A stretch of 42,803 bases of DNA from Gemmatimonadota bacterium (GCA_031127085.1 JARIEY010000006.1:1-42803), one strand, 5' to 3'. Positions 2,321 to 9,040 are shown, counted from the first letter of the stretch. The notes: generated by a model from the letters alone, not told the origin. A program made the numbers and translations.

Positions 2321-2938
2321 CTAATCGTGCGTGCGCAGCACGAACTTCTGCTGGCCGCTGGCATACGACACCAACGCCACGCGCTGCGAGGCCACCGTGA
2401 GCAGCGTGTCGAGCGCCACGACCTCAGGCAGCGCCTCAGCGCGGCGTACACGGCGCTCCTGTGCTTCACGCGTTTCACGGTCGGCGGCCGCCGCGCCGGC
2501 TGCGGTCTGGTCGCTTGTGCTGTCGGGACGGACGTTGGCGTCAATGCGCCGAAGCCTGATTCCCAGTCGACGCTGACCGGGTGCGACCGCGTATTCGCGG
2601 AACAGGTGCATGGGCCGGTCGTGACGCAGCCCGCCGCCGTGCACCGTGTCTGCGGCGAGCACCTGTCCGTCGATGGTGACGGTCAGGAGGTAGCGCGCAA
2701 ACCGTCCTTCGCACTCCCAGCGCAAGCGCATGTGCTGCGGTCGCTCGGCGAGTTCCGCGTTTGTCAGCCGTCGGCACTGTTCGATGCGTTCTGGACGTGC
2801 CGACCATGACAGCCGCAAGACCGAGTCGCCGGCCGCGGTTGCCCGTAGCGGGACCAGCGAACCAGCGCGCAGAAGCGCGAGCGCAACGGTGGTGACCGCA
2901 AGTGCGGCCAATCGATGGGGCCACGAGGCGTGTGTCAT
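2321..2938 (-). CDS. Hypothetical exported protein translationally coupled to the cytochrome b fusion
   Basis: Start MTHASWPHRLAALAVTTVALALL (N-terminal hydrophobic segment); ATGA overlap with the upstream gene stop at 2935. Confidence 0.6.
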   Translation of the reverse strand: MTHASWPHRLAALAVTTVALALLRAGSLVPLRATAAGDSVLRLSWSARPERIEQCRRLTNAELAERPQHMRLRWECEGRFARYLLTVTIDGQVLAADTVHGGGLRHDRPMHLFREYAVAPGQRRLGIRLRRIDANVRPDSTSDQTAAGAAAADRETREAQERRVRRAEALPEVVALDTLLTVASQRVALVSYASGQQKFVLRTHD

Positions 2939-4503
2939 CGTGGCTCCTCCAGCGGCACGGGCTCGCAGAGTGCGCCGAGCGGCTCGTCGAGCTGGCCGAG
3001 CGAGAGTGCGTCGTAGGCTTTGAGCCGTGCAGCGAAACTGGTCCATGCGTCGAGGACGGCAGGGCGATCGCCCCATGCCATCACGGCGGTGGCCACGCGC
3101 TTTCGATTGACGCGCACCTGCAGTTCGGCCTCGCGGTCGTTGAACATGCGTTCATGCAGCCACTTGGGCCCTTCGCGTCCGCGGCAGTCGCGCGGCGGGC
3201 AGGTGAAGACCATGACGCCCGGCGCGCCGGCGCGCAGGGTCAACTCGAGCGCCGAGGTATGGATGTTACCAGCGCAGGGGACGAGCCGGACGTCCGCGTC
3301 GCGGTCACGCAGCGCTGCCAGATATTCGGGTGCGGCATGCTCGCAGCAGATCGCGACGGGACGGAGTTCGCGCGCCCCGGCGTTGCTGTAGGCCTGGCGG
3401 ACCTGTGCCACCTGATCGCGTCCCGTGTGCCCGAGCGGGCCCACCCCCATAGGCGCGCAGGATCCGGCGCACACCCCGCACGAGACGCACCGCACTGGAT
3501 TGACGCGTGCGACCATGGTCGACTGGGCGCCGTGTGCCTGTTCGCGCGGAACCATGGAGACCGCATCCCACGGGCAGTCCTGCGGGCACTGATTGCATCC
3601 GGTGCACTGGCGCTCATCGACCACGCTCGGCGTCCACGTTCCGGTGCGTGGGCGGCGCGTGAGCCAGGGCACCAGCATGGCGAGGGCGAATGTGCCGGCC
3701 GCACCCATCCACGCGAGCCATGGGGGAAGCGCGTTGGCCCACGGTAGCCAGAAGGCGAAGAAGAGATCGACGGGGATATCCCGTTCGACCGCGAGCAGCG
3801 ACGCCTCGGGAGCGAGTGGCGACGGCGCCGCAAGCGAGAGCAGCGTCAGCGCGCCGAAAACGGCATACAGCAGCGGGCGTGGTGGGAGCAGCGCAGGACG
3901 GGCAAGGCGCGAGAGATGGATCCAGAGTCCGGCCGCGGCGCCAAGCGGCAGCGCGACGTGCAGAAAGAGGTTAATGAAGAAGAACGCGCTGGGAATAGAC
4001 TGATCGCCGGCGAAGATGCGTCGCACCGGTTCGCTGAGCACGGGCAGTGCATCGAAGAGACGCGCTCCGCCGACAGCAAGTTCGGCACCGAAGGTGTCCC
4101 AGACCATCACGTAGCCTGTCCATCCGCTCACGAAGAGCACGGCGAGCAGTACCACGCCGGACGTCCACGCCAGAGCGCGCGGGCCCCAACTGCGTGCCTG
4201 CGCGAAGAGTCGCCAGGCGTGCAGGACGACGGCGACGACCATGGCGTCGGACGCGAAGCGATGCAGCGACCGAATCCACCGACCGAGGAACGGGTCGGCC
4301 TGCAGTCGGGCGACCGATTGCCACGGGGCTCCGACGCGGTAGAAGACCAGCAAATACAGGCCGGTGATGATGAGCAGCCCCAGCAGCGCTGCGGCGAGCG
4401 CTCCTGTTTGGTGCAACGGATTGTGCCGCCACCCGAACAGGCGGGTGGCGCCGGCGTCGGCCGCACGGAGCGGTCGCAAGGCGGTGTGTTCAAGTGCGCG
4501 CAC
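2935..4503 (-). CDS. Fusion: cytochrome b (N-terminal, di-heme type) + two [4Fe-4S] ferredoxin motifs + MvhD/HdrA-delta-like iron-sulfur domain
   Basis: Two H-x13-H pairs (LHRFASDAMVVAVVLHAW; LHVALPLGAAAGLWIH); CTGCNQCPQDCP and CVSCGVCAGSCAP; C-terminal CCEH...VPCAGNIHTSALELTLRAGAPGVMVFTCPPRDCRGREGPKW resembling MvhD. GTG start. Confidence 0.85.
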   Translation of the reverse strand: MRALEHTALRPLRAADAGATRLFGWRHNPLHQTGALAAALLGLLIITGLYLLVFYRVGAPWQSVARLQADPFLGRWIRSLHRFASDAMVVAVVLHAWRLFAQARSWGPRALAWTSGVVLLAVLFVSGWTGYVMVWDTFGAELAVGGARLFDALPVLSEPVRRIFAGDQSIPSAFFFINLFLHVALPLGAAAGLWIHLSRLARPALLPPRPLLYAVFGALTLLSLAAPSPLAPEASLLAVERDIPVDLFFAFWLPWANALPPWLAWMGAAGTFALAMLVPWLTRRPRTGTWTPSVVDERQCTGCNQCPQDCPWDAVSMVPREQAHGAQSTMVARVNPVRCVSCGVCAGSCAPMGVGPLGHTGRDQVAQVRQAYSNAGARELRPVAICCEHAAPEYLAALRDRDADVRLVPCAGNIHTSALELTLRAGAPGVMVFTCPPRDCRGREGPKWLHERMFNDREAELQVRVNRKRVATAVMAWGDRPAVLDAWTSFAARLKAYDALSLGQLDEPLGALCEPVPLEEPR

Positions 4504-4526
4504 AGGAGAGGCCCTCTTGCGGGATA

Positions 4527-4548
4527 TTTATCATATCGACATGATAAA
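4527..4548. promoter_or_regulatory. Candidate Rrf2-family operator in divergent promoter
   Basis: TTTATCAT-ATCGAC-ATGATAAA, perfect 8-bp inverted repeat, between divergent genes at 4503(-) and 4608(+). Confidence 0.55.
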
Positions 4549-4607
4549 CACAACAACGGGCCACGTCGGCCTGCGTCTCTCTGTCTGCAGGTACCGGACG
4601 CGCTTTC

Positions 4608-7637: not shown

Positions 7638-7640
7638 GTC

Positions 7641-8534
7641 GTGGCCGACGTGCGAACGCGGGGCGGCGTGGCGCTGGCCGCCCTCGGGATGATTCTCGCC
7701 ATCACGGGTGCGTGGTGGGCGTTCGCGCTGTGGCCGGTGCCGACTGACGTGCCGGAGTGGGTGCTGCGCACACGCGCGGCCTGCTTTGGCACGACGGCTA
7801 CCGGGCTACCGCATGCCGGTGGATGGATACTGCTCGTTGGCGAGCCGATTGGAATGATCGGTGTGTTGGTGACGGTTTGGGGCGAGGCGCTGGCACGCGA
7901 TCTCCGTCGACTGCGGGAGACGTTCTCGGGTCAGGTGACGATCGTCGCAGCGCTGGTGCTCTTCGCGTACGGTGCATCCGCGGCGGCGCAGCGCGTTCGT
8001 TCGGCGCGAGGCGTCGCCAACGCCGCGCTGTTCACGCCAGCGCCGTTTTTCGACCCCGTGGAGACGGCGCGCTACTCTGAGCCGGCCCCGCCGCTGGGTT
8101 TGGTGGATCAGCACGGAGCGGCGTTCTCGCTGGACGATGTGCGGGGCCGGCGCGTGATTGTGACGTTCGCCTTCGCGCACTGTCAAACGATTTGCCCGAC
8201 CATTGTGAAGGACCTGAAGGCGGCTCGCCGTGCGGCTCACGCGGAGGATGCGGCGTTAGTGGTTGTGACGCTCGATCCGTGGCGTGACACGCCGAGTCGG
8301 TTGCCAGCGATTGCGGGGCAGTGGCAACTCGGTCCGGACGACCGCGTGCTCAGCGGCCCCGTGGCGGATGTGCTGCGGGTGCTTGCCGCATGGGAGGTGG
8401 CGCATTCACGCGACGAGCGTACTGGCGATGTCACGCATGCATCGGCGACGGTGCTGGTTGGACGCGACGGTCGGGTGAGGTATCGGATGTCCGGGGACTG
8501 GCAGCGGACGGTGGCGCTGCTGCAAACGATGTGA
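7641..8534 (+). CDS. SCO1/SenC-family copper chaperone with N-terminal membrane domain
   Basis: FAFAHCQTICPTIVKDLK (CxxxC), VTLDPWRDTPSRL, C-terminal VTHASATVLVGRDGRVRY; ~130-aa hydrophobic N-terminus. GTG start 3 nt after subunit I. Confidence 0.88.
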   Translation: MADVRTRGGVALAALGMILAITGAWWAFALWPVPTDVPEWVLRTRAACFGTTATGLPHAGGWILLVGEPIGMIGVLVTVWGEALARDLRRLRETFSGQVTIVAALVLFAYGASAAAQRVRSARGVANAALFTPAPFFDPVETARYSEPAPPLGLVDQHGAAFSLDDVRGRRVIVTFAFAHCQTICPTIVKDLKAARRAAHAEDAALVVVTLDPWRDTPSRLPAIAGQWQLGPDDRVLSGPVADVLRVLAAWEVAHSRDERTGDVTHASATVLVGRDGRVRYRMSGDWQRTVALLQTM

Positions 8535-8548
8535 CGATTGGGGGAGCC

Positions 8549-9040
8549 ATGACGGTGCGCAGAACATGGGTTCGGGACGGCGTGGTTGTTGGGCTCATCG
8601 CGTATGCCGCGGTGGCCATCTTCTACAGCGCCTTTGATGTGCTGGCGAGCCGTGGGACACTCTTCACCGTCAACCTGCTGGGGCAGGGGCTGTTCAACGG
8701 GCTGCGCGACCCGTCGGTGCTGCTCTTCCCGGTGCCGGTGGATTTCACCGTGGTGTTTTGGTACAATGCAGTGCACCTGGTGGTATCACTGGCGATTGGT
8801 CTGTTTGTGCTGTGGCTCGTGGAACGCGCGGAGCAGTTTCCAGCGCGTGCTGGCCTGATTGCGGGACTGCTGGTGACTGGCTTTGCGATCACGGTGGCGG
8901 TGGTGGCACGCCTCACCGAGCCCATGCGCACATTGCTGCCGTGGTGGAGCATTGTGTTGGCCAACGGTGCGGCTACGGCGTGCGCCGCGGTGTACGTGTT
9001 GCGTCGTCGGCCGGGGCTGTGGAGAACGATGTTCGGCTAA
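8549..9040 (+). CDS. Hypothetical 4-TM membrane protein of the heme-copper locus
   Basis: ATG at 8549 (MTVRRTWVRDGVVVGLIAYAAVAIFYSAFDVL...), internal to the listed ORF 8321-9040; 14 nt after the SCO gene. Confidence 0.75.
   Translation: MTVRRTWVRDGVVVGLIAYAAVAIFYSAFDVLASRGTLFTVNLLGQGLFNGLRDPSVLLFPVPVDFTVVFWYNAVHLVVSLAIGLFVLWLVERAEQFPARAGLIAGLLVTGFAITVAVVARLTEPMRTLLPWWSIVLANGAATACAAVYVLRRRPGLWRTMFG

Follow-up and report, generated by a model that had tools for sequence, protein, structure and literature searches.

In the reading that we somewhat favor, the locus at positions 2321-9040 of a 42,803-nucleotide stretch of DNA (the window), a 42.8-kb contig of an 82%-complete genome (G000) that its named homologues place in Gemmatimonadota, encodes both a nitric oxide (NO) reductase of the eNOR type and a dedicated transmembrane module for electron transfer, which would act as the electron donor of the enzyme. 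One gene for an Rrf2-family regulator and one palindrome are flanked by two divergent gene sets. The rightward set runs from the Rrf2 gene through a 55-residue transmembrane (TM) protein, a CuA-bearing subunit II, the catalytic subunit I and an SCO protein to a 4-TM protein, with gaps of 7, 3, and 14 nt (small TM protein/subunit II, subunit I/SCO, SCO/4-TM protein) and a GTGA overlap joining subunits II and I. The leftward set consists of a fusion of cytochrome b, two [4Fe-4S] motifs and FlpD, followed by a membrane-anchored protein, the two genes overlapping by ATGA at 2935-2938. An earlier reading of this DNA from the sequence alone (the sequence-only reading) had described the same gene anatomy, and our analysis found every feature at its place.

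The two arms occur together across genomes. In our first comparison, which covered 41 genomes (G000 and 40 relatives), the ten genomes having a subunit I with glutamine at the tyrosine position (Gln-type) were the same ten that have the full fusion, on the same contig and in divergent orientation, and the other 31 had neither; within the window's own genus, both arms were present in six of 11 genomes and absent from five. Across 298 Gemmatimonadota genomes, eNOR was found in 67, the fusion in 67 and both in 64 (Fisher p 2e-57, phylogeny ignored), and all 61 same-contig pairs were divergent, 60 spaced by 0.9-1.6 kb and one by 8.7 kb. In four of the six exception genomes, the gene lies on a 5-6-kb contig that ends at the gene. 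We also scanned bacterial and archaeal genomes with a profile of the fusion and took the best 80 loci: eNOR lies in the flank of 69, and in 10 of the other 11 the contig breaks off no more than ~1.4 kb from the fusion; in five of these 10, genes for the eNOR small subunit or subunit II are still present. Both arms run in the same direction in Myxococcota, Bdellovibrionota, Eisenbacteria, and Rokubacteria, as well as on a Defluviimonas plasmid, one such co-linear order being small subunit-subunit II-subunit I-(cyoE)-SCO-fusion-anchored domain. Over 61 loci, the divergence of eNOR correlates with that of the fusion (Mantel r 0.89), a value to which shared descent contributes. The sequence-only reading had made its combined system depend on such co-occurrence, and these counts speak strongly in its favor. 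We reject chance neighborhood on the genus-level concordance, the flank scan, and the 298-genome counts, and we are highly confident that the module is functionally linked to eNOR.

Judged by its sequence, the rightward arm very likely encodes a complete eNOR. Subunit I (5889-7637, plus strand; PF00115, E=3.5e-61) has all six histidines that ligate two hemes and CuB (H72, H234, H283, H284, H388, and H390), and they are invariant or nearly so in its homologues. Where oxygen reductases have H-x3-Y, its motif reads GHSSQQIN (H234-S-S-Q237-Q238), so the residue four after the CuB histidine is Gln238 and not the cross-linked tyrosine. We aligned subunit I with other eNORs and with the Tyr-type paralogues of sister genomes, which are ~33% identical to it and carry the motif GHPLVYF; glutamine was present in the motif of every module-linked homologue whose motif was read. 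Subunit II (5287-5892, plus strand; CoxB-like profile matches), encoded directly beside subunit I as is typical of eNORs, has the full CuA ligand set C162-x-E-x-C166-x3-H170-x2-M173 plus H127, and H127, C162, E164, C166, H170, and M173 are invariant in 75/75 homologues. The SCO1/SenC copper-insertion protein (7641-8534, plus strand; PF02630, E=4e-23), which has an N-terminal membrane domain, carries the CxxxC and histidine copper site of its family (C181-x3-C185 and H266; invariant, 62/62). The single-TM small subunit of 55 residues (5112-5279, plus strand) has a homologue in 76/84 loci examined, and a comparable short open reading frame (ORF) is also found in the eNOR loci of Defluviimonas, Thermomicrobium, and Thermus. 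Because of the Gln motif, the six histidines, and the CuA ligands, we regard this arm as a new member of a known family. Purified Rhodothermus marinus eNOR has reportedly been described as an NO reductase by Murali et al. in 2024. The eNORs of Natronomonas and Chloroflexi share the glutamine, the six histidines, and a gene order in which subunit I directly follows a CuA subunit II (PMC8756737). Glutamine at the tyrosine position defines eNOR, many homologues of which carry wrong cytochrome oxidase labels (PMC8756737); by this published criterion, the NO-reductase type that the sequence-only reading saw in the Tyr-to-Gln subunit I and CuA subunit II is eNOR.

Subunit I varies elsewhere in the family. 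On Thermus plasmids (L054:7986-9665 and L055:7986-9668), it reads HFK where the window has HFH (H390), which places a lysine at the position of a low-spin heme ligand. Its last TM helix (~55-65 residues) is fused to subunit I in the window, unlike in seven loci (L083, L101, L117, L119, L128, L197, and L009), where it forms a separate ORF in another frame, overlapping or adjacent.

From its motifs, we infer that the fusion (2935-4503, minus strand; Pfam Cytochrome_B, Fer4, and FlpD) is a diheme cytochrome b with two [4Fe-4S] clusters. It has two histidine pairs (H81/H95 and H182/H196), six TM helices, and an altered ef-loop. Across 84 homologues, little or no variation is seen at the two histidine pairs, in either of the two CxxCxxCxxxC motifs, or at the FlpD cysteines. 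An AlphaFold2 (AF2) model of a fused homologue (pLDDT 93.9, pTM 0.89) matches cytochrome b and b6 in the PDB over its membrane part. TM5, the loop, and TM6 of the fusion align weakly but repeatedly with helix E, the ef-loop, and helix F of cytochrome b, and the position of the PEWY glutamate is a near-constant aspartate in x-D-x-F/Y-Y/F-x-F-W; together, these suggest a putative quinol site. A published Chloroflexi protein (RME88945.1) combines cytochrome b6, ferredoxin-like, and FlpD domains with a C1 cytochrome domain of the kind found in NirS fusions (PMC8756737); it is possibly related to the fusion and would connect it with denitrification.

The second leftward gene (2321-2938, minus strand) encodes a protein that AF2 (pLDDT 91.4) models as one N-terminal helix and a beta-sandwich, the helix being long and of TM length. 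The sandwich carries the motif C-x13-H-M-R-x4-C, in which the cysteines are conserved in 78/78 and 76/78 homologues, the histidine in 75/78, and the methionine in 77/78. Each of the 67 genomes with the fusion also has this domain, as do only two others among the 298 Gemmatimonadota, and in eight loci it is fused behind FlpD in a single ORF; FlpD and the sandwich would therefore act together, on opposite sides of the TM helix. Because of the TM-length helix and these fused homologues, we prefer "membrane-anchored" to the "exported" of the sequence-only reading, whose gene call and ATGA coupling stand. We found no PDB fold match at E<=0.001, no PDB sequence match, and no consistent Pfam family for the domain, which makes it a protein family without a Pfam or PDB entry. 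The positive-inside count of the fusion (0.18 vs 0.07 K/R per residue) favors a cytoplasmic Fe-S/FlpD side, and sequence and prediction support a topology with the Fe-S and FlpD domains in the cytoplasm and the anchored partner domain in the periplasm.

We propose the following scheme for the module-linked eNOR. As in its family, the heme/CuB site of subunit I would reduce two NO molecules to nitrous oxide (N2O), with electrons entering through CuA of subunit II; the cofactors would be built by SCO and, in relatives, also by CtaA, CyoE, and CopD-like proteins. The electrons may come from quinol at the altered Qo-like ef-loop, from a cytoplasmic donor through FlpD and the two [4Fe-4S] clusters, or from both; the b hemes would carry them across to the periplasmic face, from where they would reach CuA. 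The eNOR would then not have to rely on a bc complex and cytochrome c. If the module is the donor, this would be an NO reductase fed otherwise than by cytochrome c or direct quinol oxidation, and the electron-donor question of this eNOR branch becomes testable.

Several observations weigh against this scheme. The window locus encodes no electron donor or acceptor for FlpD, and no heme, Rieske, or complete cupredoxin motif was seen in the anchored domain. The eNOR loci of Thermus, Thermomicrobium, and one Gemmatimonadota genome (G217, a true exception, whose eNOR is at 42-46% identity) lack the fusion nearby and the anchored domain, so eNOR does not generally require the module; the module-free eNORs that we sampled come from plasmids and that one genome, and our eNOR tree is biased towards module-bearing members. 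Another true exception, a 97%-complete genome (G131, loci L191/L133), has the fusion, the anchored domain, and ctaA without eNOR; either eNOR was lost there or the module has another use.

The main rival is one that we consider rather unlikely: the module may be an assembly or maintenance system in which cytoplasmic electrons cross the membrane to hold copper in the Cu(I) state or the thiols of CuA and SCO reduced, in the manner of CcoG or CcdA/TlpA, the anchored C-HM-C domain carrying thiols or copper in the periplasm. In the co-linear operons, the module genes come after SCO, the same clusters recurrently hold genes for assembly factors (ctaA in 14 loci, cyoE in 6, and CopD-like in 9), and the invariant cysteine pair with His-Met would be suited to copper binding or to a redox disulfide. 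However, a diheme cytochrome b that keeps its ef-loop would be elaborate for a thiol reductase, CuA-bearing eNORs elsewhere manage without the module, and the cysteine pair may be a plain structural disulfide. CcoG/RdxA is a copper reductase for cbb3 oxidase and not a diheme cytochrome b; it resembles the fusion in being a membrane Fe-S protein whose gene accompanies those of a heme-copper enzyme, and the two differ in architecture and cofactors.

Another possibility, which we hold improbable, is that the module is a Rieske-free, quinol-oxidizing, bifurcating complex. Quinol would be oxidized at the altered Qo-like site. One electron would reach the CuA of eNOR by way of the anchored domain, which perhaps holds copper; the second would travel along the b hemes, the [4Fe-4S] clusters, and FlpD towards a cytoplasmic acceptor of low potential, with the strongly downhill NO reduction driving the bifurcation. 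The anatomy would allow this, and weak motif evidence points to it. We think it quite improbable that oxygen reduction is the main activity of the enzyme, or one of two, with the module serving aerobic respiration. The closest PDB sequence matches of subunit I are indeed ba3 oxidases, and the hidden Markov models of families that match the enzyme are those of oxidase subunits; but glutamine replaces tyrosine in every linked copy whose motif was read, the module is absent from genomes whose paralogues are all of the Tyr type, and nirK or nirS genes are adjacent. On the Gln motif and the gene context, we reject oxygen reduction as the main role. Although most sampled genomes are Gemmatimonadota, so that our counts are not independent, and the Fisher test ignores phylogeny, it is highly improbable that the arms are mere neighbors, held in place by common descent or by the promoter that they share, since presence and absence agree within one genus and the pair is kept through varied gene orders, several phyla, and an alphaproteobacterial plasmid.

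Returning to the module as the putative donor of eNOR, its parts recall known systems. Rieske/cytochrome b complexes, above all those of anammox bacteria (PMC12954380), share a diheme cytochrome b with alignable helices A-F, a redox extension on the cytoplasmic side, and a partner in the periplasm; they differ in that the module lacks a Rieske protein and cytochrome c1/f, its extension is 2x[4Fe-4S]-FlpD, and its PEWY is altered. In the anammox complexes, the cytoplasmic part is an NAD(P) oxidoreductase, and a comparable electron bifurcation was proposed (PMC12954380). We rejected a cytochrome bc1/b6f complex, as no Rieske or c1/f gene was seen in the locus and PEWY is replaced by x-D-x-F/Y. 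With MvhD/FlpD and HdrA of the Mvh-Hdr system, the module shares FlpD behind [4Fe-4S] clusters, and its ferredoxin-FlpD part resembles the C-terminus of HdrA2; it differs in that FlpD is fused to cytochrome b and the locus has no HdrA flavoprotein, HdrBC, or hydrogenase. An MvhD-HdrABC complex was rejected as well: no HdrA/B/C, hydrogenase, or formate dehydrogenase partner is among the locus genes, and none was recognized among the recurring neighbor gene clusters.

A literature search that covered the published eNOR papers in part found no description of such a fusion beside an NO reductase. The sequence-only reading had claimed novelty for the combined system. We would narrow this claim: the novelty is the conserved cytochrome b/FlpD partner module, while eNOR itself is already known, if rarely studied. 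In the excerpted text of a Gemmatimonadota survey, NorBC is given in at least 9%, and that text does not mention eNOR (PMC9426454); we found eNOR in 67 of 298 Gemmatimonadota genomes (22%), to be compared with that excerpted figure for NorBC.

Both arms may be under the control of the Rrf2 protein (4608-5084, plus strand; Pfam Rrf2, E=4e-29; TIGR00738 above cut-off), acting as an Fe-S regulator on the one palindrome. This palindrome, TTATCATATCGACATGATAA (4528-4547, no strand; TTATCAT-N6-ATGATAA), a candidate Rrf2 operator of the divergent promoter by its conservation in relatives, is the single site in the window at <=3 mismatches (0.15 expected); seven loci besides that of the window also have it without a mismatch. 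Among the 41 genomes, the exact form occurs in six, as one copy per genome and always at the eNOR/fusion locus. Matches of at least 11/14 were found in the intergenic stretch of 29/46 loci with Rrf2 vs 7/18 loci without it, which gives moderate support to the operator. A sigma-70 promoter scan of the intergenic region returned nothing. In the regulator, C91, C98, C104, and H107 are invariant (49/49); three cysteines and a histidine are the ligand pattern of IscR. The [4Fe-4S] cluster of NsrR is held by three cysteines and Asp8. Neither assignment was adopted: for NsrR, residue 8 is glutamine in the window's Rrf2, H107 is invariant, and the NCBIfam model gives 42 bits vs a cut-off of 182; for IscR, the equivalog gives 70 bits vs a cut-off of 207.55, and the exact operator stands only at the eNOR/fusion locus in the six genomes. 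The NO-responsive control suggested by the sequence-only reading thus gains no support from the ligand set of the regulator.

The surroundings of the clusters point to denitrification. Genomes with eNOR are enriched in nirK (19/67, odds ratio 3.8, p 2e-4) and in nosZ (34/67, odds ratio 2.4, p 0.002), phylogeny being ignored in both. A nirK gene lies near the cluster in eight loci, two of which (L123 and L207) have identical coordinates and are apparently the same contig; in two Eisenbacteria it is directly behind the fused module on the same strand, and the nirK copy that we checked has a C-terminal cytochrome c domain. Genes for an Rrf2 protein and a DUF542 protein are found close to the Thermus plasmid eNORs, and in one case a nirS-type gene is nearby too. 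In G000 itself, three nosZ matches exceed the cut-off (contigs C119, C77, and C73), and no nirK match was found at E<=1e-40 in the 82%-complete assembly; the organism is possibly a consumer of NO and N2O without nitrite reduction. The last gene of the rightward set (8549-9040, plus strand) encodes the 4-TM protein, which matched no family and has a narrow distribution, with a homologue in only 5 of the loci. On the Defluviimonas plasmid, the operon of eNOR and module is followed by a gene for a bacteriohemerythrin (L052:14517-14921).

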